A stretch of DNA of 21,123 bases from a virus. The stretch is from IMG/VR virus record IMGVR_UViG_3300042691_033176, positions 1 to 21,123 of that record; one strand, written 5' to 3'. Numbering within the stretch: position 1 is the stretch's first letter; every line of letters starts with the position of its first letter. Below the pieces are notes generated by a model. It ran no database searches and was not told where the DNA came from. It saw only the letters and a list, made by a program, of their open reading frames with translations. The position numbers and the translations under genes are program-made. Shown here in pieces: positions 71 through 14,766 of this stretch.

Positions 71-604
71 ATGAAAACAGTAGGACACAAACTCGAAAAA
101 TTTGCCGTAACAGGCGTCAACCCAGGTAGCGATCAGTTTTTTGATATTACCGACGAATCATTCTCAGGTAAATGGAAAGTAATCGTTTACTACCCAAAAG
201 ATTTCACATTCGTTTGCCCAACAGAAATTGTAGCATATGACAAACTAACTAACGATTTTAAAGACCGTGATGCAGTTTTGCTCACGGGTAGCACCGACAA
301 TGAGTTTTGCAAACTAGCATGGCAGAAGGCACATCCTGATCTTGCAAAGATCACACACACTCAATTTGCCGACACACAGCGCGGTGAACTAAGTTTGATC
401 AATCAACTTGGTATATTCTATGCACCTGCAGGAGCAGCACTACGTGCAACATTTATTGTTGATCCAGACAACGTTATCCAACATGTTACTGTTAACAACT
501 TGAACGTTGGTCGCAGCCCAGAAGAAACACTACGTGTATTAGATGCATTGCAAACCGGTGAGTTGTGTGCATGTAACCGTGCAGTTGGCGGCGAAACACT
601 ATAA
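71..604 (+). CDS. ahpC: 2-Cys peroxiredoxin (alkyl hydroperoxide reductase C)
   Basis: A thiol peroxidase that reduces H2O2, organic hydroperoxides and peroxynitrite in the cytoplasm. The peroxidatic motif is intact: Pro42, Thr46 and Cys49 in YPKDFTFVCPTE, with the conserved Arg125 in ALRATFIVDP. The C-terminus carries Cys166 and Cys168 (GELCACNRAVGG), in the place of the resolving Cys of typical AhpC, so the catalytic cycle should work. At 177 aa it is slightly shorter than the usual 187 aa. The start has a strong AAGGAG 7 nt upstream. It opens a tight run with an SGNH hydrolase (9 nt gap) and AhpD, which ends at a terminator at 1528-1550. The AhpD partner suggests that reduction goes through a lipoyl/AhpD route rather than AhpF; no ahpF is present in the window. 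Confidence 0.95.
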   Translation: MKTVGHKLEKFAVTGVNPGSDQFFDITDESFSGKWKVIVYYPKDFTFVCPTEIVAYDKLTNDFKDRDAVLLTGSTDNEFCKLAWQKAHPDLAKITHTQFADTQRGELSLINQLGIFYAPAGAALRATFIVDPDNVIQHVTVNNLNVGRSPEETLRVLDALQTGELCACNRAVGGETL

Positions 605-3541: not shown

Positions 3542-3616
3542 CTGGCCGTAGTACAATGGACAGTACAGAAGCCTTCTAAGCTTTTGATCCAGGTTCGATT
3601 CCTGGCGGCCGGACCA
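3542..3616 (+). tRNA. tRNA-Arg(TCT)
   Basis: Acceptor CTGGCCG/CGGCCGG, anticodon loop CTTCTAA, T-arm CCAGG-TTCGATT-CCTGG, encoded CCA. Reads AGA/AGG. First gene of the promoter at 3500. Confidence 0.93.
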
Positions 3617-3621
3617 AATTT

Positions 3622-3695
3622 GGGGGATTAGTTAAATGGGATAACATCGGCTTTGCAAGCCGAGATTAACAGTTCGATTCTGTTATCCTCCACCA
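3622..3695 (+). tRNA. tRNA-Ala(TGC)
   Basis: Acceptor GGGGGAT/ATCCTCC (one G-U), anticodon loop TTTGCAA, T-arm AACAG-TTCGATT-CTGTT, encoded CCA. The only Ala tRNA in the window; U34 would have to read all four GCN codons. Confidence 0.94.
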
Positions 3696-3703
3696 AAACA
3701 ATT

Positions 3704-3782
3704 CGGGGTGTAGCTTAGTCTGGCTTAAAGCGCCTGCTTTGGGAGCAGGAGATCGTGAGTTCGAATCCCACTTCCCCGACCA
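3704..3782 (+). tRNA. tRNA-Pro(TGG)
   Basis: Anticodon stem CCTGC/GCAGG with loop TTTGGGA, T-loop TTCGAAT, encoded CCA. The acceptor CGGGGTG/TTCCCCG has one T-T mismatch, and the T-stem GTGAG/CCCAC one A-C mismatch. Confidence 0.88.
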
Positions 3783-3791
3783 ATTTTTTTA

Positions 3792-3820
3792 TTGACATTA
3801 AATCCAAAACGAGATACAAT
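3792..3820 (+). promoter_or_regulatory. sigma70-type promoter
   Basis: TTGACA (3792-3797), a spacer starting TTAAATCC, and TACAAT (3815-3820), 17-bp spacing. Drives tRNA-Glu and the structured RNA elements behind it. Confidence 0.85.
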
Positions 3821-3860
3821 GTCTGAATCGTAGTAGTTTCTTTAACAATTTAAGTTTTAT

Positions 3861-3936
3861 GCACCGTTAGACATCTGGTTGAGGTCACCACCCTTTCAAG
3901 GTGGCTAGATGGGTTCGAATCCCATACGGTGTACCA
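3861..3936 (+). tRNA. tRNA-Glu(TTC)
   Basis: Acceptor GCACCGT/ACGGTGT, anticodon loop CTTTCAA in stem CCACC/GGTGG, T-arm ATGGG-TTCGAAT-CCCAT, encoded CCA. Its 3' ACCA is also the first part of the 16-bp helix that closes the next RNA element, so the two structures compete for these four bases. Confidence 0.93.
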
Positions 3937-4070
3937 TATTGAAACACATTTCTGTCATTGCCGTGCCAGCTTCACGGTGAGTACAAGAGTACGGGAGTAG
4001 CTACCCGACAGGTTGTACAAAGTTACAAGTGGGTTAATGACAGCCCCTTGGGAGTGTGTTTCAATATGGT
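3933..4070 (+). ncRNA. long-helix RNA element A
   Basis: Closed by a perfect 16-bp helix ACCATATTGAAACACA (3933-3948) with TGTGTTTCAATATGGT (4055-4070). Inside, an 8-bp helix CTGTCATT (3952-3959)/AATGACAG (4036-4043) encloses four hairpins: CCGTG/CACGG, GTAC/GTAC, a GTAGCTAC-centred hairpin, and TTGTA/TACAA. The design is that of a multi-branched RNA. First and largest member of a family of five (also 4158, 4462, 4942, 5987). Function unknown. Confidence 0.7.
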
Positions 4071-4080
4071 TAAACAGTTA

Positions 4081-4157
4081 TGTCCACTCAACGAGAGATT
4101 CGTAGAGACAAGATCGCATCTTGTTTTTGGAGTGCGGTGAGATACCGACGGTGGACG
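4081..4157 (+). ncRNA. structured RNA segment between elements A and B
   Basis: Closed by TGTCCAC (4081-4087) with GTGGACG (4151-4157, one wobble). Inside are hairpins ACGA/TCGT, CAAGAT/ATCTTG and CGGT/ACCG; CACTC/GAGTG is an alternative pairing. It has no tRNA signature and no likely ORF. Element B starts at the very next base. Confidence 0.5.
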
Positions 4158-4228
4158 CCATATTGAAGCACATTAGGCTGGTCGTAAACTCGTCGTTGGA
4201 CTTTAATGCTTAGTGTGTTTCAATATGG
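4158..4228 (+). ncRNA. long-helix RNA element B
   Basis: An 18-bp closing helix CCATATTGAAGCACATTA (4158-4175) with TAGTGTGTTTCAATATGG (4211-4228) contains two G-U pairs where element A has A-U, so pairing survives base changes. The interior is only 35 nt. The last GG also pairs in the next stem (4227-4233 with 4271-4277). Confidence 0.68.
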
Positions 4229-4388
4229 TAGCCCGACTAACTGTGATACGAGCGTCAAATGCTCGGTAGCGGTTACCATAAAAAATGCACAGTGTCGCTT
4301 TACGCTGTGGCAGGATGTGCCTCTCCTTCCTAGGATGGATGCCTCTCAAACTGCAACTAGAGTTCTCGCAAAAGAACATAGCAATGAT
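4227..4388 (+). ncRNA. structured stretch upstream of tRNA-Ile
   Basis: The 5' part (4227-4278) folds as GGTAGCC/GGTTACC, ending ACCA, with an inner GAGC-GTCAAAT-GCTC hairpin that has a 7-nt loop: a tRNA-like miniature without a T-arm. Further on are CACAGTG/CGCTGTG (about 4289-4310) and a GTTCT/AGAAC hairpin just before tRNA-Ile. No likely CDS on either strand. Confidence 0.4.
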
Positions 4389-4465
4389 GCCCACTTAGCT
4401 CAGTCGGTTAGAGCATCGTCTTGATAAGGCGAGGGTCCTTGGTTCGATTCCAAGAGTGGGTACCA
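4389..4465 (+). tRNA. tRNA-Ile(GAT)
   Basis: Acceptor GCCCACT/AGTGGGT, D-arm GCTC/GAGC, anticodon loop TTGATAA, T-arm CTTGG-TTCGATT-CCAAG, encoded CCA. As with tRNA-Glu, the CCA overlaps the closing helix of the next RNA element. Confidence 0.96.
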
Positions 4466-4571
4466 TATTGAAGCACATTAGGCAAAGTACAAGCCTTGCT
4501 CGGTGCAGCCGGGATGCCGCAAGGGATCCTTTAAGGCGGACGGTTCGATTCCGTTAGTGTGTTTCAATATG
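4462..4571 (+). ncRNA. long-helix RNA element C with a tRNA-like T-arm
   Basis: A 17-bp helix CATATTGAAGCACATTA (4464-4480) with TAGTGTGTTTCAATATG (4555-4571) includes two G-U pairs. The interior ends in a canonical T-arm, GACGG-TTCGATT-CCGTT, directly against the helix, as in a tRNA whose acceptor stem has been extended. The rest is not a normal tRNA: GGC/GCC flank a 9-nt loop, and CCTTGC/GCAAGG encloses a CGG/CCG hairpin in place of an anticodon arm. Either a tRNA remnant or a deliberate tRNA mimic. Confidence 0.6.
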
Positions 4572-4572
4572 T

Positions 4573-4601
4573 TTGACATTAAATGTGTTTAGTGTTATAC
4601 T
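4573..4601 (+). promoter_or_regulatory. sigma70-type promoter for the long structured RNA
   Basis: TTGACA (4573-4578) followed by TTAAAT, and TATACT (4596-4601), 17-bp spacing. It starts right after the last bases of element C's closing helix. Predicted start near 4608. Confidence 0.85.
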
Positions 4602-4607
4602 AGTGGC

Positions 4608-4938
4608 AAATAAAGATTGTAGCAGTAAAGAGCAGAGCCTGATACACATAGGGAAGCCCATTCTATAAGATGGTACCTCAGGATGAAGGGATTAAGTTCC
4701 TGTGAAAACTGTGTAAGATTTCCGGTTACTACTTTCCATAAAGTAGCGTTTGGTAATACGATAAAGTCCAGGTGGCTATGGCACCTTTAGCGAGACATAG
4801 ACTCTGCATTTCGATGTGGTGTCTCCGGTGTTTCAGACAACATAGCAGCGTGGACACTTCGTCGGCAAATCGCCAAACAGTGTTCGGACAGGGTAACAAC
4901 TCAGCTTGGGGGCGACCGTGGAAAAGCGTGGCCTAAGC
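4608..4938 (+). ncRNA. large structured RNA, about 330 nt
   Basis: Promoter-driven and without a likely ORF. Visible helices: TACACA (4643-4648)/TGTGTA (4710-4715) around a multi-branch with GGG-AAG-CCC, CCAT/ATGG and CAGGA/TCCTG; a 7-bp hairpin CTACTTT-CCAT-AAAGTAG (4729-4746); AGGTG/CACCT; a long-range GCAGAG (4632-4637)/CTCTGC (4802-4807); and a 3' domain with the block GGACAGGGTAACAACTCAG (4886-4904) followed by GCTTGGG (4904-4910)/CCTAAGC (4932-4938). The 3' domain recurs at 15075-15123. It has no tmRNA or RNase P signature. Large ornate phage RNAs near tRNAs (GOLLD, ROOL) are the nearest precedent I know; membership is untested. Confidence 0.65.
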
Positions 4939-4941
4939 AAT

Positions 4942-5023
4942 TATATTGAAGCATTTTGTAGGAAGCTCCCATTGAAAGTGCTAGCATACGCGGTGGGGCT
5001 GTGCGACAGAGTGTTTCAATATA
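4942..5023 (+). ncRNA. long-helix RNA element E
   Basis: TATATTGAAGCATTTTGT (4942-4959) pairs with ACAGAGTGTTTCAATATA (5006-5023), 18 bp with three wobbles. An inner stem AGC(T)CCCA/TGGGGCT is visible. It follows the 3' end of the large RNA by 3 nt, as other members follow tRNA 3' ends. Confidence 0.65.
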
Positions 5024-5027
5024 GTTT

Positions 5028-5150
5028 ATATTAGTTTTGTAGCTTGTAAGCTCAGAGGCAAGCGCAGGCGTTATGTAACCGAAACAATAAACAGTAATCA
5101 CGTGTAAAGCTGTTGAGTTAGGCATATAGTGCAGGCTACAAAACTAATAT
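5028..5150 (+). ncRNA. RNA element closed by a perfect 16-bp inverted repeat overlapping a start codon
   Basis: ATATTAGTTTTGTAGC (5028-5043) and GCTACAAAACTAATAT (5135-5150) are exact inverted repeats around 91 nt with small internal hairpins (for example GTTA/TAAC). The helix sequence is unrelated to the ATATTGAA family but the architecture is the same. The 3' arm covers the first two bases of the ATG at 5149, so the helix would hide that start unless it is opened or cut. Confidence 0.65.
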
Positions 5151-5613
5151 GAAATACATTCTTTTATTTTTATTATTTGTATCACAAAATTGTTTTAGTT
5201 GTGACAAATATGTTATTGGATTTAAAGGCATCAATGATTTGTTTGATAGTCATGCCTTTAATCAATATGCTAAAAAAATTAATGCGTGTGCAATGACATA
5301 TAGTTGGAATCAACCACACATTGCAGTTAAATTTATTAACAGTAACAAAAAACAATATCAGTTGTATGGCTATAGTAAAGGTGCCGAAAGCATCAAGCAT
5401 GTTTTAAAAAATGTAAAACATAAGCCTTACTCTATTATAACAATTGGTGCGTATCATACAGCACAGGTTAATTATAGTGTGTATGGCATAGAAACAAGAA
5501 ATTATTTTGATAGTTCAGGTAGGCGTAATATTGCTCCGGGTGTACACATTAACAATGTCAGTCATCAAGCAATACAATCGTATGTGAATAAAAAGTATTT
5601 AGGCGTAAAATAA
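5149..5613 (+). CDS. secreted alpha/beta-hydrolase-like protein
   Basis: A 154-aa protein with an N-terminal hydrophobic signal peptide (about residues 1-17, MKYILLFLLFVSQN, then CFSC). It has a nucleophile-elbow motif GYSKG (Gly74, Ser76, Gly78), an early FKGIND loop that could be an oxyanion region, candidate acid Asp121 and a late His139 (NNVSHQ), in the order expected for a small lipase/esterase. Export implies action in the periplasm or on the envelope. There is no SD, and the ATG is partly inside a 16-bp RNA helix. The next gene, tRNA-Asp, begins 4 nt after the stop. The fold assignment rests on motifs only; the protein is shorter than most of this class. Confidence 0.65.
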   Translation: MKYILLFLLFVSQNCFSCDKYVIGFKGINDLFDSHAFNQYAKKINACAMTYSWNQPHIAVKFINSNKKQYQLYGYSKGAESIKHVLKNVKHKPYSIITIGAYHTAQVNYSVYGIETRNYFDSSGRRNIAPGVHINNVSHQAIQSYVNKKYLGVK

Positions 5614-5616
5614 ATT

Positions 5617-5694
5617 GGCACTTTAGCATAGCTGGCCTAATGCGCATGCCTGTCACGCATGAGATCACGGGTTCGAATCCCGTAAGTGTCGCCA
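5617..5694 (+). tRNA. tRNA-Asp(GTC)
   Basis: Acceptor GGCACTT/AAGTGTC, anticodon stem CATGC/GCATG with loop CTGTCAC, T-arm ACGGG-TTCGAAT-CCCGT, discriminator G, encoded CCA. Confidence 0.95.
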
Positions 5695-5703
5695 AGTTTT
5701 AAA

Positions 5704-5791
5704 GGGTGTTGCCCCCGTCGGCGGTCTGTAAAACCGTTACTCTGAGAGATGGGAAGTTGAGTTCGTGGAGCGTTACCATCAGCACCCACCA
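5704..5791 (+). tRNA. atypical tRNA-Tyr(GTA)-like gene
   Basis: Acceptor GGGTGTT/AGCACCC with discriminator A and CCA, and an anticodon arm GCGGT-CTGTAAA-ACCGT giving GTA. Total length 88 nt suits a class II tRNA. The rest is abnormal: only 10 nt separate acceptor and anticodon stems, a tiny GCC/GGC D-hairpin can form only by sharing bases with the anticodon stem, and no TTCRANY T-loop is in place. Either CGTGG/CCATC forms a poor T-stem with loop AGCGTTA, or GATGG/CCATC closes a 23-nt loop. The only Tyr candidate in the window. Confidence 0.55.
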
Positions 5792-5816
5792 TTAATTTTC
5801 AAAAGGAGATCCTGTT

Positions 5817-5924
5817 ATGGATAGTGATAAGAAAGGCTTGTTTAGATATGGTTGGACATATCTTGATAAACATAAACGAGCAAGATTGATGTTCCAACTA
5901 TATGGTGTATCTATGGGAGTATAG
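5817..5924 (+). CDS. 35-aa hypothetical protein
   Basis: An ATG with a strong AAGGAG 8 nt upstream opens 35 codons (MDSDKKGLFRYGW... ...LYGVSMGV), basic and aromatic. It ends inside the first 10 nt of tRNA-Lys. Not recognised. The good ribosome binding site is the main support. Confidence 0.5.
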   Translation: MDSDKKGLFRYGWTYLDKHKRARLMFQLYGVSMGV

Positions 5925-5990
5925 TCAAACGGTTAAGACAGCGGACTTTTAATCCGTCAGGTCAGGGTTCGAATCCCTGTGCTCCTACCA
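5915..5990 (+). tRNA. tRNA-Lys(TTT)
   Basis: Acceptor GGGAGTA/TGCTCCT, anticodon stem GCGGA/TCCGT with loop CTTTTAA, T-loop TTCGAAT, encoded CCA that doubles as the start of the next RNA element's helix. Confidence 0.95.
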
Positions 5991-6059
5991 TATAAAAACA
6001 CATTCTCTACTGGGCACGAATAAAATTCTCTAGTGGGTACGAGTGTGTTTCTATATGGT
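5987..6059 (+). ncRNA. long-helix RNA element D with an internal duplication
   Basis: ACCATATAAAAACACA (5987-6002) and TGTGTTTCTATATGGT (6044-6059) pair over 16 positions with one A-C mismatch. The interior holds two near-identical 18-nt units, TTCTCTACTGGGCACGAA (6003-6020) and TTCTCTAGTGGGTACGAG (6026-6043), in tandem. It follows tRNA-Lys and shares its ACCA. Confidence 0.65.
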
Positions 6060-6125
6060 AACTTTAATGATTTTACTTAGCTATCGTTCATTACATTGCG
6101 TATGTTCAGAACCATTTTTGTGTTG

Positions 6126-6160
6126 TATACTCTCTTAAATACATGTGCAGTACATGTATT
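6126..6160 (+). promoter_or_regulatory. pqqA upstream region: -10 box and palindrome
   Basis: TATACT (6126-6131) is a likely -10, though the -35 is weak. A perfect 9-bp inverted repeat AATACATGT (6138-6146)/ACATGTATT (6152-6160) with a 5-nt centre begins at about the predicted +1 and ends 8 nt before the AAAGGAG of pqqA. It may be an operator or a 5' mRNA hairpin. A late-like CTTAAATA overlaps its left arm. Confidence 0.5.
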
Positions 6161-6178
6161 AACTTAAAGGAGATTAAC

Positions 6179-6250
6179 ATGTGGACAACACCAAGTGCAA
6201 CTGATATGCGTTTTGGATTTGAAATCACCATGTACATTGCAAATCGCTAA
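6179..6250 (+). CDS. pqqA: PqqA, precursor peptide of pyrroloquinoline quinone
   Basis: A 23-aa peptide that fits the PqqA family along its length: [15 protein letters not shown] then ITMYIANR. It has the crosslinked Glu15-x3-Tyr19 pair, the Arg-Phe-Gly core and the conserved terminal Ala-Asn-Arg, and the length equals the 23-aa Klebsiella PqqA. The radical-SAM enzyme PqqE with PqqD links Glu and Tyr, and the crosslinked pair becomes PQQ, the cofactor of periplasmic methanol and glucose dehydrogenases. AAAGGAG lies 6 nt upstream of the ATG, and a terminator follows at 6280, so the gene is a monocistronic unit. No pqqB-E is in the window, so the peptide would feed the host pathway (inference). 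Confidence 0.9.
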
Positions 6251-6279
6251 TAGCTGATTTACAATTTACGTGTAGCGTG

Positions 6280-6305
6280 AAAGGGTAGCATTGCTACCTT
6301 TTCTT
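6280..6305 (+). terminator. intrinsic terminator after pqqA
   Basis: A 10-bp stem AAAGGGTAGC (6280-6289)/GCTACCTTTT (6293-6302) with a 3-nt loop and a T-rich tail. It isolates pqqA from the tRNAs behind it. Confidence 0.75.
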
Positions 6306-6315
6306 ACCTGTTGAA

Positions 6316-6391
6316 TGGGGATTCGCCAAGTTGGTAAGGCATCGGATTTTGATTCCGACATTCGGTGGTTCGAGTCCATCATCCCCAGCCA
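6316..6391 (+). tRNA. tRNA-Gln(TTG)
   Basis: Acceptor TGGGGAT/ATCCCCA, anticodon loop TTTTGAT in stem TCGGA/TCCGA, T-arm GGTGG-TTCGAGT-CCATC, discriminator G, encoded CCA. Confidence 0.95.
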
Positions 6392-6397
6392 ATATAA

Positions 6398-6474
6398 GCC
6401 CCAGTAACTCAGTGGACTAGAGTACTGTGCTACGAACGCAGGAGTCGGAGGTTCGAATCCTTCCTGGGGTACCA
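6398..6474 (+). tRNA. tRNA-Arg(ACG)
   Basis: Acceptor GCCCCAG/CTGGGGT, anticodon loop CTACGAA in stem CTGTG/CGCAG, T-arm GGAGG-TTCGAAT-CCTTC, encoded CCA. It needs A34-to-inosine editing by TadA, presumably the host's, to read CGU/CGC/CGA. Confidence 0.95.
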
Positions 6475-6493
6475 GTTGTTTAGGAGACGTAAC

Positions 6494-6673
6494 ATGGAAA
6501 ACAAATTTAAAAGATTTATGCCAATTGGGCAAGTTGCACTTATCAAAATTAATGAACTTGTACAAAGAGGCGGCGAAATTATTACAGAAAAGCGTGAATA
6601 CGTTGAAATAAAACGTATGCAAAGCATTGCACACATTGACCAACATGGTCGTGTTGAATGGCGTGCTGAATAA
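6494..6673 (+). CDS. 59-aa hypothetical protein
   Basis: The start chosen is the ATG at 6494, which has GGAG 7 nt upstream; an earlier in-frame ATG at 6476 has no binding site and abuts the tRNA. The product (MENKFKRFMPIGQVALIKIN... ...HGRVEWRAE) is mixed-charge without membrane segments, with a possible small beta-rich fold. It sits between tRNA-Arg(ACG) and tRNA-His with a 4-nt gap to the latter. Not recognised. Confidence 0.65.
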   Translation: MENKFKRFMPIGQVALIKINELVQRGGEIITEKREYVEIKRMQSIAHIDQHGRVEWRAE

Positions 6674-6677
6674 CTAT

Positions 6678-6754
6678 GGTGTCGGTAGCTCAATTGGTAG
6701 AGTCCAGGATTGTGATTCCTGTTGTTGCGGGTTCGAATCCCGTCCTTCACCCCA
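6678..6754 (+). tRNA. tRNA-His(GTG)
   Basis: Anticodon arm CAGGA-TTGTGAT-TCCTG, T-arm GCGGG-TTCGAAT-CCCGT, and the His-specific extra G(-1) opposite C73, then CCA. The acceptor GTGTCGG/CCTTCAC has two adjacent mismatches (T-T and C-T), unusual for a working tRNA. Confidence 0.88.
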
Positions 6755-6768
6755 AATAAAAGGATAAT

Positions 6769-7380
6769 ATGAAAGGTTATCAATCTGCAATTTTTGATCC
6801 AATAAATTTGGATCACGCAAAAGATATTGTGTTGACACCTGATCCAAAATTTCCGAACAGGTTTGAAAACGATACAAACTATTTTATTGAAATAATTGAC
6901 AATGAACATCTTATAGATCAAAATACTTGTGTAATTGACTTTGGTGTTGGTATGGGTAGAATTAGTAAAAAACTGATTGATAAATTTAATTGTAAAATAG
7001 TTGGCACCGATATAAGCTTAAACATGTTAATATATGCGACCCAGTATATTAATAATCCTAATAATTTTGTAACATGTAATAAAGTTTCTTATACGAACTG
7101 TTTTGATGTGTGTATTGCTGCATTTGTTTTACAACATGTAGAACATCCTATACAAGAAATAGAGAATATATACTCTATTCTTAAACCACATGGATATTTA
7201 ATTTGTTTAAACAATTATAAACAACGATTAATTCCAGGTGATTGGAGAGAAGATAAAAGTGTAATTTGGTTTGACGATCATCTTGATATTTTTTCAGTTT
7301 TAGATAAAAAGTTTCAAAAAATTAAAGAATTTGACTACCCACTTGCAGATCACAAGATTGTAATCTATAAGAAAAATTAA
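6769..7380 (+). CDS. class I SAM-dependent methyltransferase
   Basis: A 203-aa protein with a Rossmann methyltransferase core: motif I VIDFGVGMGR (residues 55-64), the acidic end of strand 2 in VGTDIS (Asp81), motif IV-like CIAAFVLQHVEH (115-126) and the post-motif KPHGYLICLNN. The first 50 residues have a short PDPKFPNRFEN segment that may be a substrate-binding part. The substrate cannot be told. An AAAGGA site precedes the start. Its stop overlaps by 3 nt the stop of the convergent minus-strand gene, so the two genes meet end to end with no room for a terminator. Confidence 0.85.
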   Translation: MKGYQSAIFDPINLDHAKDIVLTPDPKFPNRFENDTNYFIEIIDNEHLIDQNTCVIDFGVGMGRISKKLIDKFNCKIVGTDISLNMLIYATQYINNPNNFVTCNKVSYTNCFDVCIAAFVLQHVEHPIQEIENIYSILKPHGYLICLNNYKQRLIPGDWREDKSVIWFDDHLDIFSVLDKKFQKIKEFDYPLADHKIVIYKKN

Positions 7381-8102
7381 TAAATTTGTCTTTCATTGAT
7401 GTATTGAAATAACATTTCGGCAAGTTGTGTGTGCATTTTGGCTTCATAGTGTCCAAATTCTGTATATGCAAACTTTTCGTGATTACACCAATTCAACATA
7501 AAGTTATGATTATCAAAATTAAATAGGTGTTTAGGTTGAAAGTTAGTAGTTGCGTATTCAATTACAGGAATATGAATTACATCTAGATTATTGTAATGAC
7601 ATAATGATTCTACTAACATACACGTTTCATTTAAGTTATTATAAACACTAGTGAGTAAGTTATCGAGATAGATTTTATTTAATTCTGTAGTGCGCTCTGC
7701 GTATGGCATATCTTCCCAGTGCAATCCTAAAGAGAGAAATCCAGTGTCATCAACACCAAACATTCCTTGCATATCTGGTCTATAGAATTCTTGTTCAAAA
7801 CAATGAGTAAGGGCAAATAAAATCAAACAGTTATCTAATTCATTAATTGTGTTGGTTAATTTTCGTAAACCTCTTTTGTGCCCAGTACCGCTCATTGCAA
7901 AATTATAACATGGTACGTTTAATTTTTTTGCAAGTAAATTTGGAAAACTAAATGGTTTAGTTAAATTATCAACTTCTGGAATTGAAATTTTGCCTGAAAA
8001 AACATCGATAAAACTAGGAGAATTTTCGATTGGAATTTCGCATCCTGCAAAAGAACAATCTCCGAATGCAGCTATGGACGTGAATTTTTTTAATTTATTC
8101 AT
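7377..8102 (-). CDS. SGNH-hydrolase-like protein
   Basis: The only minus-strand gene that I accept. It is 241 aa with SGNH-like blocks: AAFGDCSFAG (residues 11-20; the nucleophile would be Ser17 in a DCSF form, as in the GCSFTYG type of phage proteins), YNFAMSGTGHKRGL (66-79, block II Gly), LILFALTHCFEQEF (93-106, a degenerate block III) and GHYEAKMHTQLAE near the C-terminus with His218 and His224 as block V candidates. No signal peptide. Proteins of this type occur in large marine phages with unknown substrate. A perfect TATAAATA box lies upstream on the same strand and predicts a leaderless mRNA. Confidence 0.7.
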   Translation of the reverse strand: MNKLKKFTSIAAFGDCSFAGCEIPIENSPSFIDVFSGKISIPEVDNLTKPFSFPNLLAKKLNVPCYNFAMSGTGHKRGLRKLTNTINELDNCLILFALTHCFEQEFYRPDMQGMFGVDDTGFLSLGLHWEDMPYAERTTELNKIYLDNLLTSVYNNLNETCMLVESLCHYNNLDVIHIPVIEYATTNFQPKHLFNFDNHNFMLNWCNHEKFAYTEFGHYEAKMHTQLAEMLFQYINERQIY

Positions 8103-8107
8103 TAGAA

Positions 8108-8115
8108 TATTTATA
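8108..8115 (-). promoter_or_regulatory. late promoter TATAAATA on the minus strand
   Basis: An exact T4 late consensus. With its last A (8108) as -6, +1 falls on 8102, the A of the minus-strand ATG; no Shine-Dalgarno is present there. Confidence 0.6.
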
Positions 8116-8166
8116 GAAAAGGTTTTTTCATTTTAAAAAATCATGAAGTTATGTGTTAAATAAAAA

Positions 8167-8244
8167 GGAGAGTGAGCTAGTGTGGTCATTCAGCAGCGGT
8201 TTGAAGAGCCGCGGAACTAGGTTCGATTCCTAGACTCTCCGCCA
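8167..8244 (+). tRNA. tRNA-Phe(GAA)
   Basis: Acceptor GGAGAGT/ACTCTCC, anticodon stem GCGGT/GCCGC with loop TTGAAGA, T-arm CTAGG-TTCGATT-CCTAG, discriminator G, encoded CCA. The D-loop is long. Confidence 0.93.
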
Positions 8245-8260
8245 AATATAGGAGTGTAGT

Positions 8261-8566
8261 ATGTCAGACGAAAAAGATAAACTTAGACACAGTGAGAGAC
8301 TACATCAAAAAGAAACAAAAATTAAAAGACAATTGCAATTAGCAAAAAACTATGGTTATCATAAACTTAGTTCTGTTATGAGCAAAATGCCTTTCATGTT
8401 ACAACCACACCGTCATCACAAAACAAAAATATTTAATTGTGGCGACCCTAAATGTTATATGTGCGGCAATCCTCGCAAGTTTTTTGGTGAAGAAACTATG
8501 CAAGAAAAGAAACATAAACAAGAAAAGTTTTATAAAGACGACGGAAAAGATATAGATGAAAGCTGA
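8261..8566 (+). CDS. hypothetical phage protein with Cys-rich knuckle
   Basis: A 101-aa, highly charged protein. Residues 1-30 are helical and Lys/Glu-rich; residues 58-73 hold NCGDPKCYMCGNPRK with Cys60, Cys65 and Cys68, a possible zinc- or metal-binding knuckle; the tail is again Lys/Glu-rich. The CGxPxCxMCGNPRK pattern recurs in small proteins of T4-like marine phages and some bacteria, all without known function (from memory, not searched). GGAG precedes the ATG. The last five bases, including the stop, lie within tRNA-Thr(GGT). Confidence 0.75.
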   Translation: MSDEKDKLRHSERLHQKETKIKRQLQLAKNYGYHKLSSVMSKMPFMLQPHRHHKTKIFNCGDPKCYMCGNPRKFFGEETMQEKKHKQEKFYKDDGKDIDES

Positions 8567-8637
8567 TGTAGCGTAGCTGGTAGCGCAACGCCTTGGTAAG
8601 GCGTAGGTCACCGGTTCAAATCCGGTCATCAGCACCA
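8562..8637 (+). tRNA. tRNA-Thr(GGT)
   Basis: Acceptor GCTGATG/CATCAGC, anticodon loop TTGGTAA in stem ACGCC/GGCGT, T-arm ACCGG-TTCAAAT-CCGGT, encoded CCA. Overlaps the preceding CDS by 5 nt. Confidence 0.95.
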
Positions 8638-8638
8638 T

Positions 8639-8713
8639 GGTAGAGTAGCAAAGCGGTAATGCACTTCCTTCATACGGAAACTATCGGGGGTTCGATTCCC
8701 TCCTCTACCACCA
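8639..8713 (+). tRNA. tRNA with CAT anticodon (Met, or Ile2 reading AUA)
   Basis: Acceptor GGTAGAG/CTCTACC, anticodon loop TTCATAC, T-arm GGGGG-TTCGATT-CCCTC, encoded CCA. It begins 1 nt after tRNA-Thr. Three CAT tRNAs are present; this one differs most from the elongator and initiator types and is my candidate for the lysidine-modified tRNA-Ile2 (inference). Confidence 0.9.
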
Positions 8714-8742
8714 GTTACATTGTTTTTTTATGGAAAACAAAG

Positions 8743-8750
8743 TATAAATA
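8743..8750 (+). promoter_or_regulatory. late promoter TATAAATA upstream of dnaK
   Basis: An exact T4 late consensus. Predicted +1 at about 8756 gives a leader of about 59 nt, with an ATCAG/CTGAT hairpin and an AAAGGAG site before dnaK. No sigma32-like heat-shock boxes were seen. Confidence 0.6.
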
Positions 8751-8814
8751 TATATATCAGATGCGCCTATCGGGCACTGATTAAAAAAATCTTGCTTATT
8801 TAAAGGAGAAAAGT

Positions 8815-10725
8815 ATGTCTAAGATTATAGGTATTGACCTAGGTACAACCAATTCGTGTGTCGCCATTATTGATGGCAAAACCCCAAAAGTAATAGAAAA
8901 TAGTGAAGGTGCAAGAACTACGCCAAGTATTATCGCCTACATCAATGATGGTGAAATTATGGTGGGTGCTCCTGCAAAACGCCAAGCTATTACTAATCCA
9001 AAAAACACTGTATATGCTTCTAAGCGACTTATCGGTCGCAAATTTAATGAAGAAGCAGTGCAAAAAGATATTGACCTTATTCCATACAAAATCATTAAAG
9101 CAGACAATGGTGACGCATGGGTAGAAGTTAATGACAAAAAATTAGCACCACCTCAAATTAGTGCAGAGGTTCTTCGTAAGATGAAGAAAACTGCAGAAGA
9201 TTTTTTAGGTGAGGAAGTAACACAAGCAGTTATTACAGTACCTGCATATTTCAATGACAGCCAACGTCAAGCAACAAAAGACGCTGGTAAAATTGCTGGA
9301 CTTGAAGTATTACGTATTATCAATGAGCCAACTGCAGCAGCATTGGCATATGGAGTAGACAAGAGTGAAAAGAAAGACCGTAAAATCGCTGTGTATGATC
9401 TTGGTGGTGGTACTTTCGATATATCTATTATCGACATCGCTAATGTGGATGATGATAAACAATTCGAAGTACTTTCCACTAATGGGGATACATTCTTAGG
9501 TGGTGAAGATTTTGACCAACGCATCATGGATCATCTTGTTGATGAATTCAAAAAAGAAAGTGGTGTCGATCTAACTAAGGATGTATTAGCATTACAGAGA
9601 CTTAAAGATGCAGCAGAACGTGCTAAGATTGAATTGTCAAGTTCAACACAAACGGATGTAAGTTTACCGTACATCACTGCCGATGCAACTGGACCTAAGC
9701 ATTTAAATGTCAAAATTACACGTGCTAAATTTGAAGGACTAGTTGAAGATTTAATTCAACGTAGCATCAAGCCATGTGAAGTTGCAATTCGTGATGCAGG
9801 TGTTAGTGTCAGTGATATTGATGAAGTCATTCTTGTTGGTGGTATGACACGTATGCCACGTGTACAAGAAGCAGTTGAAAAGTTTTTTGGCAAAGCACCT
9901 CGTAAAGATGTAAATCCTGACGAAGCAGTTGCAGTTGGTGCTGCTATTCAAGGTCAGGTGTTAGGCGGTGATCGAAAGGATGTATTGCTACTTGACGTTA
10001 CGCCACTAAGCCTAGGTATCGAAACACTAGGTGGAGTGATGAGTAAGCTTATTAAAAAGAATACTACTATTCCAACCAAGGCTAGTCAAACTTTTAGTAC
10101 AGCAGACGATAATCAGCCTGCGGTTACTATCAAAGTGTTCCAAGGTGAACGTGAAGTGGTAAGCGGTAATAAGGCTCTGGGAGAATTTAACCTTGAGGGA
10201 ATTGAACCTGCACCGCGAGGAATGCCACAGATCGAAGTAACCTTTGATATTGATGCGAATGGCATCTTGTCTGTAAAAGCAGTTGACAAGAAAACCAATA
10301 AAGAGAAAGAAATTACAATCAAGGCTAATTCTGGATTAAGTGATGACGAGATTGACCGTATGGTTAAAGATGCAGAAGCTAATGCAGAGGAAGATAAGAA
10401 AGTAGTTGAACTTGTTCAAGCACGTAATAGTTTAGATGGTAGTATTAGTAATTTAGAAAACCAAATTACAAATCTTGAAGGTTACATTCCTGAAGAAGAA
10501 AAAACTAAAATGCTTGATGCATTGACTAAGTACAAAGAAACTGCTAAAGGTGATAGTAAAGAGGATATGGACAAAGCTACCGAAGAGTTAGGTAATCTAT
10601 ATCGTGAAACTATTAAGTACGAAGCAGAAAAGCGTAACAAAGAAATGCCAAATGGTGATCCAAACGCTGAAGTTAAGCCAGGTGATCCAACAGTAGTAGA
10701 TGCAGAAGTAAAAGAAACTAACTAA
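8815..10725 (+). CDS. dnaK: DnaK (Hsp70) chaperone, full length
   Basis: A complete 636-aa Hsp70, near the E. coli length of 638. The ATPase domain has phosphate-1 motif [10 protein letters not shown] (5-14), Lys70, phosphate-2 motif YDLGGGTFD (194-202) with Thr200, and the adenosine motif LVGGMTRMP. The linker [14 protein letters not shown] leads to the substrate-binding domain, then the helical lid and a C-terminal tail DAEVKETN resembling the DAEFEEV tail of bacterial DnaK. All catalytic residues that I can check are present. The sequence looks beta/gammaproteobacterial, suggesting acquisition from a host. No dnaJ or grpE is in the window, so it would use host cochaperones. It stands alone behind a TATAAATA box, with a tRNA starting 8 nt after its stop. 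Confidence 0.98.
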
Positions 10726-10733
10726 GGTTTCAA

Positions 10734-10807
10734 GCGGGTATGATGTAAAGGTAACCTGAATCCTTGCCAAGGATTATTTGCGAGTTCGATTCTCGCTACC
10801 CGCTCCA
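10734..10807 (+). tRNA. tRNA-Gly(GCC)
   Basis: Acceptor GCGGGTA/TACCCGC, anticodon stem AATCC/GGATT with loop TTGCCAA, T-arm GCGAG-TTCGATT-CTCGC, encoded CCA. Confidence 0.93.
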
Positions 10808-10812
10808 ATTTT

Positions 10813-11049
10813 ATGATAATTGTTGAAATTTGCAAAACAACTAATCCACATTATGCTATGCCTGCAAGGGTAAAACATAGCAGAGAAAAATTGTTTGAGT
10901 GGCAACAAGAACATCCAAACTGTAAATTTGATGAGTCCGAAAATTCAAGATATATACTTTTTCACGACGAAAAAGATTATGTCTATTTTGTGTTAGCATA
11001 CCCATACTATCAACAAAGAGTAGAAATTAGTCCTTCGTCTAATGGATAA
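10813..11049 (+). CDS. 78-aa hypothetical protein
   Basis: The start ATG lies 5 nt after the tRNA-Gly CCA and has no Shine-Dalgarno, so translation may depend on tRNA 3' processing. The product (MIIVEICKTTNPHYAMPARV... ...SPSSNG) is mixed alpha/beta, with aromatic clusters near SRYILFHDEKDYVYFVLAYPYYQQ, and is not recognised. The last 22 nt run into tRNA-Arg(CCG), so the C-terminus is encoded by tRNA bases. Confidence 0.65.
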   Translation: MIIVEICKTTNPHYAMPARVKHSREKLFEWQQEHPNCKFDESENSRYILFHDEKDYVYFVLAYPYYQQRVEISPSSNG

Positions 11050-11102
11050 GACACTGCATTCCGATTGCAATGATGCAGGTTCGATTCCTGCAGGACTAAC
11101 CA
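11028..11102 (+). tRNA. tRNA-Arg(CCG)
   Basis: Acceptor TAGTCCT/AGGACTA, D-arm GTC/GAC, anticodon loop TTCCGAT (CCG), T-arm GCAGG-TTCGATT-CCTGC, encoded CCA. The anticodon stem CTGCA/TGCAA has one C-A mismatch. Third Arg tRNA; it reads CGG. Confidence 0.9.
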
Positions 11103-11104
11103 TT

Positions 11105-11344
11105 ATGGACTACTTAATAACATTTTTTGCAGTATTCATTACTGATATAGTAAATACCTACTATATAAAAGCAATTACTAATGACAGACCCATGCTTGCT
11201 AGTACACTTGCAAGTACAGTAATGCTTTTATATAGTGTTGCGGTAATTAATTTTACAAATGATAACCTTATGTTGATACCTGCATTGCTTGGAGCATTTA
11301 CAGGTACTTATGTAGCAATGATTTTAAAAAGGAAGAATGGCTGA
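11105..11344 (+). CDS. small membrane protein, three predicted spans
   Basis: I start it at the ATG at 11105, 2 nt after the tRNA-Arg CCA; an upstream in-frame start at 11042 would lie within the tRNA. The product is 79 aa with hydrophobic segments at about residues 3-17, 32-50 and 55-74, a Lys/Arg-rich C-terminus (LKRKNG) and a conserved-looking TDIVNTYYIKAI. It resembles small unassigned membrane proteins of large phages (memory, not searched). There is no SD, so a processed leaderless mRNA is likely. A holin role cannot be excluded, but no lysis gene is adjacent. Confidence 0.7.
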   Translation: MDYLITFFAVFITDIVNTYYIKAITNDRPMLASTLASTVMLLYSVAVINFTNDNLMLIPALLGAFTGTYVAMILKRKNG

Positions 11345-11376
11345 ACGCAGTAATTTGACGAATTTTTGCGTTAAAG

Positions 11377-11384
11377 CATAAATA
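11377..11384 (+). promoter_or_regulatory. candidate late promoter box (CATAAATA)
   Basis: Seven of eight match TATAAATA. Predicted +1 at about 11390, just before GAGGA and the HNH start at 11403. An AACGCA/TGCGTT hairpin precedes it. Confidence 0.5.
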
Positions 11385-11402
11385 ATAGTAGAGGATACTA
11401 TT

Positions 11403-11888
11403 ATGAACTGCATACATTGTCAACGAGAAATCAACAATAAAGGGTCGCTTTCTGCACATGAAAAGGTATGTGCGGACAATCCTAACAGAGTAAAATATAC
11501 TAGATCACCTAACGCAGGCAGAAAAAAAGGTGCTATACCATGGAATTCAGGACTAAAAACAGGTAGACCTGCTCACTTTGATGAAAAATATCCAGACGAA
11601 GTTGTTTTCTGCGAAAATTCAACTATGGCTAGGCACAGTGTAAAAGCTAGAATAAAAACTAGAAATCTTATTGAATACATATGTGGTATATGCGGTATAG
11701 GACCTGTATGGCAAGATAAGCCTATGACTTTAATTTTAGACCATATCAATGGTGTAAATAATGATAACAGATTAAGCAACTTAAGATTTGTTTGTAGTAA
11801 TTGTGATTCACAATTGCCTACATATAAAGCCAAAAATAAAAGGAAGCGCAAACCGATTGGCGACGGTACCTGTCTTGAAAACAGTTGA
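11403..11888 (+). CDS. HNH homing-type endonuclease with N-terminal zinc finger
   Basis: A 161-aa modular protein. Residues 3-23 form a CxxC...H...C zinc-finger-like unit (Cys3, Cys6, His19, Cys23). Residues 39-52, GRKKGAIPWNSGLK, resemble a NUMOD-type DNA-binding module. The HNH nuclease occupies residues 92-140: ICGICG (Cys94, Cys97), LILDHINGVNNDNRLSNL (Asp113-His114, Asn122, Asn126) and FVCSNCDSQ (Cys131, Cys134). This is the phage free-standing HNH architecture. GAGGA precedes the start. The last 47 nt lie inside tRNA-Ser(TGA), so the natural C-terminus has been extended or replaced by tRNA sequence, consistent with insertion next to the tRNA. Confidence 0.88.
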   Translation: MNCIHCQREINNKGSLSAHEKVCADNPNRVKYTRSPNAGRKKGAIPWNSGLKTGRPAHFDEKYPDEVVFCENSTMARHSVKARIKTRNLIEYICGICGIGPVWQDKPMTLILDHINGVNNDNRLSNLRFVCSNCDSQLPTYKAKNKRKRKPIGDGTCLENS

Positions 11889-11932
11889 GCGTTAATAGCG
11901 CCTTGGGGGTTCAACTCCGCCCGCTTCCGCCA
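11842..11932 (+). tRNA. tRNA-Ser(TGA)
   Basis: Class II tRNA: acceptor GGAAGCG/CGCTTCC, anticodon loop CTTGAAA, long variable arm built on GCG/CGC, T-loop TTCAACT, discriminator G, encoded CCA. The T-stem GGGGG/CCGCC has a central G-G mismatch. Overlaps the HNH gene by 47 nt. Confidence 0.9.
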
Positions 11933-11939
11933 AAATATT

Positions 11940-13085
11940 ATGACACCAGACGAATTAGTACATATAGGAAACAATTATAGAAATAACACAGAGCCTGATA
12001 AAGCTTTAGAGTGTTATGCAGAAGCTTTTATAAAAGAACCATTAAACATACATGCATGGAATAATTATGGTAATGTATTACGTGAAATGGGTGAACCTAA
12101 ACGTGCGATACCTTTCTTACAACATGCAGTCGCATTAGATGAAAATTATGTAACAGCACAATTTAATCTAAGCGTGGCATATTTGTTAGCTGGTGATTTA
12201 GAACGTGGATTCAAACAGTATGAGTGGCGTTGGCAATATGAACACTTAGCAGGCACACTTCCACAATTAGATAAACCTATGTGGGAAGGACAAGATTTAC
12301 GTGATAAAAAGTTACTTGTTCTTTGGGAACAAGGATTAGGTGACACGATACAGTTTGTTCGTTTTTTTAAAAATATACATGAATTAGGCGGTAAAGTTGT
12401 ATTTCATACGCACATGGGCATGTGTGAGTTATTTGAAAATAATCCTTATGTATATCAAATTAGCGATAACCGTGATGATTTAACTGATTACGATTATTAC
12501 ATCACTACCATGTCATTAGCAAGAGTATTAAACATTACACTAGATAATTTAGATAGTAGACCTTATATTGAAGCTTTACCAAAATATATTGAGCCTTGGC
12601 GTAGTAGATTAGGACCTAAAACTAAGATGCGTGTTGGCGTGTGTTGGAGTGGTAGAAAAGACAGTTGGATAAATCAACACAAAGGCATGCATGTCGCTAA
12701 AATGCTTTCATTAGTGGATGCAAGACCCGATATTGAATGGATAAACTTATTAGCGGATGCAAATGAAGAAGAAACACCTTATATACTTAATTCACCATTA
12801 CGAGTGTTTCCCAGCAGCATACGACATTGGGGTGATACAGCAGGATTGTTGCATCACTTAGATTTAGTGATAAGTGTAGATACTGCTATCGCACATTTAG
12901 CAGGGGCAATGGGAAAACCACTATGGATTCCATTGAACAATTATGCAGTAGATTGGAGATATTTGTTAGGTACTAGCTTGCATCCTTGGTATAATAGTGC
13001 TAGAATATTCAGACAACCAGTTATAGGTGACTGGGATAGTGTGTTGCAAAGTATGCAACACTTTTTGGATAAAGTTAAAATTTAA
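11940..13085 (+). CDS. TPR protein with GT9-like glycosyltransferase domain
   Basis: A 381-aa protein. Residues 2-100 form about three tetratricopeptide repeats (AWNNYGNVLREMGEPKRAI is one, FNLSVAYLLAGDLERGF another), ending in the QYEWRW motif that precedes the catalytic part in this bacterial family. Residues 120-375 match the glycosyltransferase-9-like domain: EQGLGDTIQFVRF (130-142), VGVCWSG (232-238), and ISVDTAIAHLAGAMGKPLW (311-329) with the DTAxAH signature. In bacteria such proteins glycosylate surface or flagellar structures; in phages they may decorate virion or host surface components (inference). It starts 7 nt after the tRNA-Ser CCA with no SD. Confidence 0.88.
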   Translation: MTPDELVHIGNNYRNNTEPDKALECYAEAFIKEPLNIHAWNNYGNVLREMGEPKRAIPFLQHAVALDENYVTAQFNLSVAYLLAGDLERGFKQYEWRWQYEHLAGTLPQLDKPMWEGQDLRDKKLLVLWEQGLGDTIQFVRFFKNIHELGGKVVFHTHMGMCELFENNPYVYQISDNRDDLTDYDYYITTMSLARVLNITLDNLDSRPYIEALPKYIEPWRSRLGPKTKMRVGVCWSGRKDSWINQHKGMHVAKMLSLVDARPDIEWINLLADANEEETPYILNSPLRVFPSSIRHWGDTAGLLHHLDLVISVDTAIAHLAGAMGKPLWIPLNNYAVDWRYLLGTSLHPWYNSARIFRQPVIGDWDSVLQSMQHFLDKVKI

Positions 13086-13100
13086 ACAATATTTAAATGC

Positions 13101-13129
13101 TTGACAATAAATCCTATCTGTTATACAAT
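13101..13129 (+). promoter_or_regulatory. sigma70-type promoter with ATAAATCC element
   Basis: TTGACA (13101-13106) followed directly by ATAAATCC, and TACAAT (13124-13129) with a 17-bp spacer. Serves the small membrane protein and the Ser-Asn-Thr tRNA group. Confidence 0.85.
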
Positions 13130-13158
13130 CACTATTAATGATTGATGAAAGGCATATC

Positions 13159-13362
13159 ATGAACATGAGATTAAAAGCAGTATTGCAAACGATTGCATTC
13201 TTTATAGTAGTTTTTGTATCAGCCATGGTAGCACATTTTCTTCCTATTACTGTAGTTGGTGCATTGGCTTTTGCAGGAATGTTTTACTTAGTTTATAGTT
13301 TGTTTTATAACCGTTTAGAATTCGATAAAAAAATAGAAGATATAGGTACTAAAAGTAAATAA
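13159..13362 (+). CDS. 67-aa small membrane protein
   Basis: The start chosen is the ATG at 13159 with GAAAGG 7 nt upstream; the earlier in-frame ATG at 13138 would lie too near the promoter start site. Two hydrophobic segments at about residues 8-25 and 30-48 are followed by a charged tail NRLEFDKKIEDIGTKSK, so a hairpin membrane protein with both ends inside is likely. Not recognised. First gene of the promoter at 13101; tRNA-Ser(GCT) starts 6 nt after its stop. Confidence 0.7.
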   Translation: MNMRLKAVLQTIAFFIVVFVSAMVAHFLPITVVGALAFAGMFYLVYSLFYNRLEFDKKIEDIGTKSK

Positions 13363-13368
13363 TTTTAA

Positions 13369-13460
13369 GGAGCGTTGGCCGAGTGGTCGAAGGCAGCGGT
13401 TTGCTAAACCGTCGTATACAGAAATGTGTACCATTAGTTCGAATCTAATACGCTCCGCCA
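13369..13460 (+). tRNA. tRNA-Ser(GCT)
   Basis: Class II: acceptor GGAGCGT/ACGCTCC, anticodon stem GCGGT/ACCGT with loop TTGCTAA, long variable arm around TACAGAAATGTG, T-loop TTCGAAT, discriminator G, encoded CCA. Confidence 0.96.
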
Positions 13461-13483
13461 AGAATTTTGTAGTAAAAGTTTAT

Positions 13484-13560
13484 TGACCAGTAGCTCAGTT
13501 GGTAGTAGCATCTGACTGTTAATCAGAGGGTCACAGGTTCGAGCCCTGTCTGGTCAGCCA
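13484..13560 (+). tRNA. tRNA-Asn(GTT)
   Basis: Acceptor TGACCAG/CTGGTCA, anticodon stem TCTGA/TCAGA with loop CTGTTAA, T-arm ACAGG-TTCGAGC-CCTGT, discriminator G, encoded CCA. Confidence 0.96.
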
Positions 13561-13579
13561 AATTTATAATGAGGATTAT

Positions 13580-13741
13580 ATGAGTGTAAAAAAAGATAGT
13601 AAACGTGATCCAATGAAAACAAAAACAGGTAAACCTAAATTAGGTCCTCTTAATATAGAACAACTTACCAAAATGCTTGAAACTTGTCGCCCTAAACATC
13701 GTGGAAAAATTCAACGTGCGATAGACAGTAGAAGTAAATAA
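13580..13741 (+). CDS. 53-aa basic hypothetical phage protein
   Basis: Start ATG with GAGG 5 nt upstream. The protein is Lys/Arg-rich at the N-terminus (MSVKKDSKRDPMKTK), followed by KPKLGPLNIEQLTKMLETC and RPKHRGKIQRAI. That second half is a pattern I associate with small proteins of T4-like marine phages (memory only). The basic character would suit nucleic acid binding, but nothing more can be said. It lies between tRNA-Asn and tRNA-Thr(TGT). Confidence 0.75.
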   Translation: MSVKKDSKRDPMKTKTGKPKLGPLNIEQLTKMLETCRPKHRGKIQRAIDSRSK

Positions 13742-13747
13742 GAATAC

Positions 13748-13821
13748 GCCCTTTTAGTTAAATGGTATAACAGTTGATTTGTAATCATCTATTGGCAGTT
13801 CGATTCTGTCAAAGGGCACCA
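13748..13821 (+). tRNA. tRNA-Thr(TGT)
   Basis: Acceptor GCCCTTT/AAAGGGC, anticodon loop TTTGTAA, T-loop TTCGATT, encoded CCA. The anticodon stem GTTGA/TCATC has one T-T mismatch. Confidence 0.9.
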
Positions 13822-13831
13822 TTAATAAACT

Positions 13832-14059
13832 ATGCCACATCCTAGTGATCTAACTAAACAAGTAATTGATAGATTAATGAACCTTAAAGAATACACAATT
13901 AAGGTTCGTGTAGAGGATAACTGGTTACCTGTTGGTGTAGTACCCTTTAATATTCATATCAAAGATAATATTGCAACTGTTTCACTTCCTGCACTAAACG
14001 AAGAGGAAGCAAAACAAAAAGTAAGTGAATATTTTGGGTCAGATGATTTTATAGAGTAG
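13832..14059 (+). CDS. 75-aa hypothetical phage protein
   Basis: It starts 10 nt after the tRNA-Thr CCA with no visible SD. The sequence has the order helix (SDLTKQVIDRLMNL), two or three beta strands (YTIKVRVEDNWLPVGVVPFN, HIKDNIATVSLPAL) and a final helix (NEEEAKQKVSEYF). The WLPVGVVPFNIHIKDNIATV block looks conserved among small proteins of T4-like phages from marine and fresh waters (memory, not searched). Function unknown. The stop codon lies directly against the next TTGACA. Confidence 0.75.
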   Translation: MPHPSDLTKQVIDRLMNLKEYTIKVRVEDNWLPVGVVPFNIHIKDNIATVSLPALNEEEAKQKVSEYFGSDDFIE

Positions 14060-14088
14060 TTGACAATATAAGTAGTAGGCAGTATAAT
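14060..14088 (+). promoter_or_regulatory. consensus sigma70 promoter of the main tRNA operon
   Basis: TTGACA (14060-14065) and TATAAT (14083-14088) with 17-bp spacing. No terminator is seen until 16087, so one transcript could carry eight tRNAs, rpoZ, a structured RNA, ppiC and a phosphoesterase. Confidence 0.9.
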
Positions 14089-14125
14089 ATCTATATTGCT
14101 TGATTGTTCTTTTAAAAGTTAGATT

Positions 14126-14202
14126 GCCTCTGTAGCTCAATTGGTCAGAGCAGCGGACTCATAATCCGTTGGTTACAGGTTCGAGTCCTGTCGGAGGCAC
14201 CA
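14126..14202 (+). tRNA. tRNA-Met(CAT), elongator type
   Basis: Acceptor GCCTCTG/CGGAGGC, D-arm GCTC/GAGC, anticodon stem GCGGA/TCCGT with loop CTCATAA, T-arm ACAGG-TTCGAGT-CCTGT, encoded CCA. Closest to bacterial elongator Met. Confidence 0.93.
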
Positions 14203-14205
14203 AAT

Positions 14206-14279
14206 GCGGGGTTCGTATAATGGTAATACCTTAGCCTTCCAAGCTAAAGCCGAGAGTTCGATTCTCTTACCCCGCTCCA
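14206..14279 (+). tRNA. tRNA-Gly(TCC)
   Basis: Acceptor GCGGGGT/ACCCCGC, anticodon stem TTAGC/GCTAA with loop CTTCCAA, T-arm GAGAG-TTCGATT-CTCTT, discriminator T, encoded CCA. Confidence 0.96.
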
Positions 14280-14288
14280 AAATTGTAT

Positions 14289-14372
14289 GCCCGGGTGGTG
14301 AAATGGTAGACACAAAGGACTTAAAATCCTTCGCCGCAAGGCGTGCCGGTTCGAGTCCGGCTCCGGGTACCA
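14289..14372 (+). tRNA. tRNA-Leu(TAA)
   Basis: Class II: acceptor GCCCGGG/TCCGGGT, anticodon loop CTTAAAA in stem AAGGA/TCCTT, variable arm CGCC-GCAA-GGCG, T-loop TTCGAGT, encoded CCA. Confidence 0.96.
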
Positions 14373-14380
14373 AGTTTTTT

Positions 14381-14462
14381 GCGCATGTGGTGGAATGGTA
14401 GACACGCTAGTCTTAGGAACTAGTCTTACGGGGTGGGGGTTCAAGTCCCTCCATGCGCACCA
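14381..14462 (+). tRNA. tRNA-Leu(TAG)
   Basis: Class II: acceptor GCGCATG/CATGCGC, anticodon loop CTTAGGA in stem CTAGT/ACTAG, short variable arm, T-loop TTCAAGT, encoded CCA. Reads CUN. Confidence 0.95.
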
Positions 14463-14467
14463 GTAAC

Positions 14468-14542
14468 AGGGGATTAGCTCAGTGGTAGAGCAGCGCCCTT
14501 ACAAGGCGAAGGTCAATGGTTCGACCCCGTTATCCCCTACCA
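14468..14542 (+). tRNA. tRNA-Val(TAC)
   Basis: Acceptor AGGGGAT/ATCCCCT, D-arm GCTC/GAGC, anticodon loop CTTACAA, T-arm AATGG-TTCGACC-CCGTT, encoded CCA. The only Val tRNA here. Confidence 0.95.
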
Positions 14543-14554
14543 ATAAGGAAATTT

Positions 14555-14758: not shown

Positions 14759-14766
14759 TATATTAT

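Follow-up and report, generated by a model that had tools for sequence, protein, structure and literature searches.

The DNA analysed here (the window) is a linear virus fragment of 21,123 bases from IMG/VR. Its gene of interest is a short open reading frame whose predicted product is a full-length PqqA, the peptide precursor of the cofactor PQQ. The peptide scored 41.3 bits against Pfam PF08042 (cut-off 21.1, E 1.5e-10) and 40.7 bits against the NCBIfam equivalog TIGR02107 (cut-off 20). A six-frame search of the whole record returned it with an E value of 2.3e-11, and the same search gave no PqqA match in 14 control genomes. Both residues that are crosslinked during PQQ synthesis, Glu15 and Tyr19, are in place. 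An earlier note, made from the letters of the window, had described a 23-codon PqqA with this residue pair, a good Shine-Dalgarno sequence, an upstream palindrome and a terminator of its own. These descriptions hold, the terminator as a probable one. The features are collected in Table 1.

Table 1 Features of the pqqA locus and the flanking lineage markers in the window.
Feature	Position	Strand	Description
AhpC-like peroxiredoxin	71..604	+	Lineage marker 5' of pqqA; Pfam match
-10-like box TATACT	6126..6131	+	6 nt 5' of the hairpin; promoter role inferred from sequence
Inverted repeat AATACATGTGCAGTACATGTATT	6138..6160	+	Two 10-nt arms, 3-nt loop
Shine-Dalgarno AAAGGAG	6166..6172	+	6 nt 5' of the ATG; kept in close relatives
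pqqA	6179..6250	+	23 codons then TAA; PqqA peptide with Glu15-x3-Tyr19
Downstream hairpin	6279..6303	+	11 bp, short T-run; fold -15.0 kcal/mol, z -5.5
DnaK	8815..10725	+	Lineage marker 3' of pqqA; Pfam, 855.7 bits

The inverted repeat occurs once in the window against an expectation of 0.01, folds at -8.6 kcal/mol and is probably either a 5' mRNA hairpin or an operator. The TATACT box would start the pqqA mRNA at about position 6138; it lacks a -35 element and was not called by a sigma-70 scan, and a TATAAT lies at a comparable place in several relatives. The hairpin downstream of the gene was missed by a terminator scan because its T-run is short, and for the same reason its role as the pqqA terminator is probable rather than certain. 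Between a tRNA-Lys gene and pqqA, an imperfect direct repeat, TTCTCTA(C/G)TGGG(C/T)ACGA, lies at 6007-6048.

No structural genes were recognised among the scanned open reading frames of the record and no terminase was found; it is the relatives of the window that settle the question of its origin. Its AhpC is 97% identical to that of a 357,559-bp record (G070), which has a PqqA of its own in a separate unit directly 3' of the gp23 major capsid gene (329 bits), with a prohead protease nearby. Terminases are present in three large pqqA-bearing records, G070, G006 and G088 (357, 356 and 278 kb); that of G070 has PA5oct-like jumbo phages as its nearest named relatives, at 55% identity. An HrgC-type protein of the window matches 121Q-like jumbo phages of about 350 kb. 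These gene matches place the window, a genome fragment, in a lineage of jumbo phages, and pqqA is carried by genuine phages and not, as the earlier note had allowed for, by a bacterial chromosome. DnaK is 84-96% identical in the phage relatives with pqqA, the order ahpC-pqqA-dnaK is common to the close relatives, and six close loci (L211, L213, L214, L216, L294 and L296) have pqqA with ahpC or dnaK as the window does; over the aligned pqqA region, L294 and L296 are the same as L214 and L211. The record also contains homing-endonuclease-like open reading frames and 27 tRNA genes, the latter spread over 3542-15495 with small open reading frames between them and covering most amino acids. Linkage of pqqA to tRNA genes is not enriched (5 of 131 loci within 300 bp versus 4 of 138 controls).

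Conservation of the locus was examined at two distances. The six close loci keep the pqqA coding sequence together with the inverted repeat and the hairpin 3' of the gene. The repeat is identical in five other loci and was found only at pqqA. In the L216 variant one pair of the upstream stem is A-T in place of G-C, with both arms changed, which fits a 5' mRNA hairpin and a dyad-symmetric operator equally well. Relatives at a greater distance have other hairpins at this upstream place, several of them just 3' of a TATAAT-like box, and most of their loci have a hairpin 3' of pqqA. Downstream hairpins with z < -2 were found at 63% of 131 distinct phage pqqA loci versus 0.8% inside coding sequence. 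The pN/pS ratio over these 131 loci is 0.18; phage pqqA is under purifying selection. These data bear on the view that a host pqqA was picked up by chance and rides along without benefit. Patchy carriage is what such a passenger would show, and the Pfam profile detected pqqA in 14 of 50 related records, a low count in part because many of these are fragments. We consider this explanation very unlikely, given the pN/pS value, the invariant active residues, the many unrelated phages that carry the gene, and its own promoter-like and terminator-like signals.

As most of the 131 loci were fetched by a PqqA pattern, conservation at fixed positions is inflated among them, and the crosslink pair was therefore tested separately. 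At least 120 IMG/VR copies have both Glu15 and Tyr19 intact. Scans of IMG/VR with nearly the same pattern returned no copy with Glu15 replaced (codons with a first base other than G, or Asp; GBN codons lay outside the scan) and none with Tyr19 replaced (first base other than T, or TBN). Both residues are also kept in all 14 records found by the Pfam profile, in which no one position is fixed. The exact motif of the window, in turn, had 0 matches in about 85,000 bacterial genomes; we rejected it as a phage signature because bacterial relatives have an extra residue (MQW, MKW) that escapes the pattern.

The genes that would act on the peptide were not found with it. The earlier note had seen no pqqBCDE nearby, and our search of the window for pqqB-E was likewise negative. 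PqqE reached the cut-off in no IMG/VR record tested, nor in three true phage records; PqqD was absent at cut-off from all 37 phage records tested, PqqC from the first phage record set tested, which did not include G070, and neither PqqE nor PqqD was found at cut-off in the 357-kb G070. PqqB was searched by local tblastn on loci only, and that search found no PqqB-E in the loci fetched by then, 120 viral ones included. Linkage of pqqA to pqqB-E, as in the PQQ operon, was not found in the phage loci and records tested. Since pqqE, pqqC and pqqD are absent at cut-off from the phage records tested, phage pqqA appears as a precursor-only gene. Phage candidates for PqqE were weak model matches of 15-42 bits against a cut-off of 381 and represent other radical-SAM proteins. 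The sole PqqE match over the cut-off came from 'Acinetobacter phage MD-2021a' (CAKLQF020000010.1, L124), a mislabelled bacterial contig with molybdate transport genes, ppk and a whole pqqABCDE. The 278-kb phage G088 has six radical-SAM domain matches within 11 kb (79725-90754), none of them PqqE by the cut-off. A full-length quinoprotein dehydrogenase of the methanol/ethanol type was found in one phage with pqqA, the 72-kb G011 (L037); none was found in the jumbo set.

A precursor without its enzymes could in principle compete with that of the host, and a phage peptide might thus bind host PqqD or PqqE as a decoy, block PQQ synthesis and shut down host respiration. Such an inhibitor would not need both crosslink residues, yet Glu15 and Tyr19 were lost in no scanned phage copy, which argues for a working substrate. 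Moreover, the most frequent phage peptides match those of hosts exactly, and the pairing of PqqA with a methanol/ethanol-type dehydrogenase in one phage points to promotion rather than inhibition. A decoy is accordingly quite improbable in our judgement.

We also considered that PqqA or PQQ might serve something other than a dehydrogenase, such as antioxidant protection, lanthanide handling or signalling. The neighbours of pqqA in the window include dnaK, the AhpC gene and genes for an AhpD-like and a second AhpC-like protein, and orphan pqqA genes of M. extorquens respond to the form of lanthanide and have been proposed to belong to an uptake system (PMC11317620). This neighbourhood is not conserved, as the pqqA of other phages sits with recombination, capsid or unknown genes and has no stress genes near it, and we regard such a use as unlikely. 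The redox island itself (71-2249) consists, in a row, of the AhpC-like, a GDSL-like, the AhpD-like and the second, diverged AhpC-like protein.

Similar genes are present in cultured phages. The earlier note had suggested a scan of methylotroph phages for short open reading frames of this kind, and a tblastn search of INPHARED with the peptide returned 23-24-residue PqqA peptides in nine Methylophilales or Methylophilaceae phage records (P19250A, Venkman, MEP301, MEP401, MEP402 and four Melnitz), as well as in a Manatee Spring podovirus. Its suggestion that gene callers miss the gene is borne out: pqqA lies under no annotated feature in P19250A, Venkman, MEP301 and MEP402, and under an annotated antisense open reading frame in Melnitz and the podovirus. 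Among the OM43-phage papers searched, those describing Venkman, MEP301, MEP401/402 and Melnitz make no mention of a phage pqqA. The window is not the first phage pqqA, since PqqA together with methanol dehydrogenase was reported in 2020 for the Lake Baikal phage population VP_266 (PMC7678222); pqqA is also listed for viruses of reservoir sediments (PMC13188868). Phage pqqA is apparently more widespread than is on record. We lean towards the view that unrelated phages of PQQ-making bacteria, with genomes of about 35 kb up to the 357 kb of jumbo phages, have repeatedly adopted one general strategy, the supply of nothing but the consumed precursor peptide of a ribosomally made cofactor, and that it has been overlooked because the gene is only 23-24 codons long.

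Bacteria themselves often carry pqqA in more than one copy. PqqA was found in 80 of 399 sampled genomes from the order of Methyloversatilis, with up to 8 copies each, and for 18 of 68 bacterial pqqA loci no pqqB-E turned up within a distance of about 1.5 kb. Three genomes (G448, G419 and G299) have 7-8 scattered copies apiece. Some genomes of about 1.3 Mb have three copies; in the one of this class examined more widely (G330), no pqqB-E was detected within about 4 kb of any of the three. The commonest phage peptide, MWTTPAATEMRFGFEVTMYVMNK, is identical to that of two of these three-copy genomes. We infer that these three-copy bacteria are methylotrophs, and the identity of their peptides to the commonest phage peptides fits methylotroph hosts for the phages concerned.

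For the window, the methylotrophic host proposed in the earlier note is a possibility. Its PqqA is of a different subtype from the commonest phage peptide, and the nearest bacterial peptides are general Burkholderiales ones, from genome G111 and Burkholderia; in G111, pqqA adjoins pqqBCDE and a PQQ alcohol dehydrogenase. The DnaK of the window is 55-69% identical to that of many Burkholderiales among the matches listed; as a means of host assignment DnaK was set aside, for among those matches it indicated only Beta- or Gammaproteobacteria. Judged from its peptide subtype, the phage likely has a PQQ-making Burkholderiales host. With other Burkholderiales nearest to this subtype, the phage could be serving a dehydrogenase for glucose, ethanol or another alcohol.

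We propose, with a probability of roughly three in four, that pqqA in the window is a precursor-only auxiliary metabolic gene that feeds the PQQ pathway of the host. The phage would make PqqA from a small mRNA of its own, with a promoter-like box, a 5' hairpin, a strong Shine-Dalgarno sequence and a terminator-like hairpin. Host PqqD would present the peptide to host PqqE, which would crosslink Glu15 to Tyr19, with PQQ then completed by proteases, PqqB and PqqC of the host. The proposal thus predicts that the gene is expressed, that host enzymes process the peptide, that PQQ rises and that the phage benefits: added PqqA alone would give more cofactor for the periplasmic quinoprotein dehydrogenases of the host and so support respiration during infection. 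One PqqA is consumed for each PQQ made, while the enzymes turn over; extra precursor alone can therefore raise the supply where precursor limits. Most likely, the phage gene copies a dosage trick of its hosts, with their up to 8 copies per genome.

Reports on bacteria show where precursor may limit. In Methylovorus MP688, PqqA availability has been described as rate-determining, and orphan copies of pqqA are present in M. extorquens (PMC11317620); in a Hyphomicrobium strain three of five pqqA copies are separate (PMC9851590). Overexpression of pqqA alone lifted PQQ in Gluconobacter and ranked second among single genes, as cited in a later paper (PMC7936290). PqqA is not always limiting, since in Acetobacter the whole pqqABCDE gave 8-fold PQQ as against 29% for pqqAB (PMC7936290). 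The pqqA gene of M. extorquens was reported dispensable in an examination that did not cover the orphan copies (PMC11317620).

Phage pqqA would rank among the smallest auxiliary metabolic genes, one overlooked by annotation even in cultured phages. If the proposal is right, about 100-200 bases are all that a phage spends to raise a host cofactor, providing nothing of the peptide-modification pathway but its substrate. The idea can be tested directly in phage-host pairs that are in culture (P19250A on IMCC19250, and Venkman or Melnitz on H5P1), and it has a bearing on how methanol is turned over in seas and lakes.

Among known systems, VP_266 (PMC7678222) is alike in its phage-borne PqqA precursor and the proposed boost to PQQ-dependent oxidation. 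It differs in that a methanol dehydrogenase lies alongside and in being a T4-like phage assigned to Methylophilaceae, whereas the window has pqqA alone, in a jumbo-phage lineage, with no methanol dehydrogenase found. G011, with PqqA and a PQQ dehydrogenase of the methanol/ethanol family, resembles VP_266. P19250A, Venkman, MEP301, MEP401, MEP402 and Melnitz share with the window an unannotated orphan PqqA of 23-24 residues on a phage, but these cultured phages have known Methylophilales hosts and peptides that end differently at the C-terminus (VMNK in Venkman, IMTR in Melnitz). The orphan pqqA genes of methylotrophs (M. extorquens pqqA2/A3, Methylovorus MP688, Hyphomicrobium pqqA3-5) likewise stand alone, away from pqqBCDE, and have been read as added dosage; they are chromosomal, whereas that of the window is viral.
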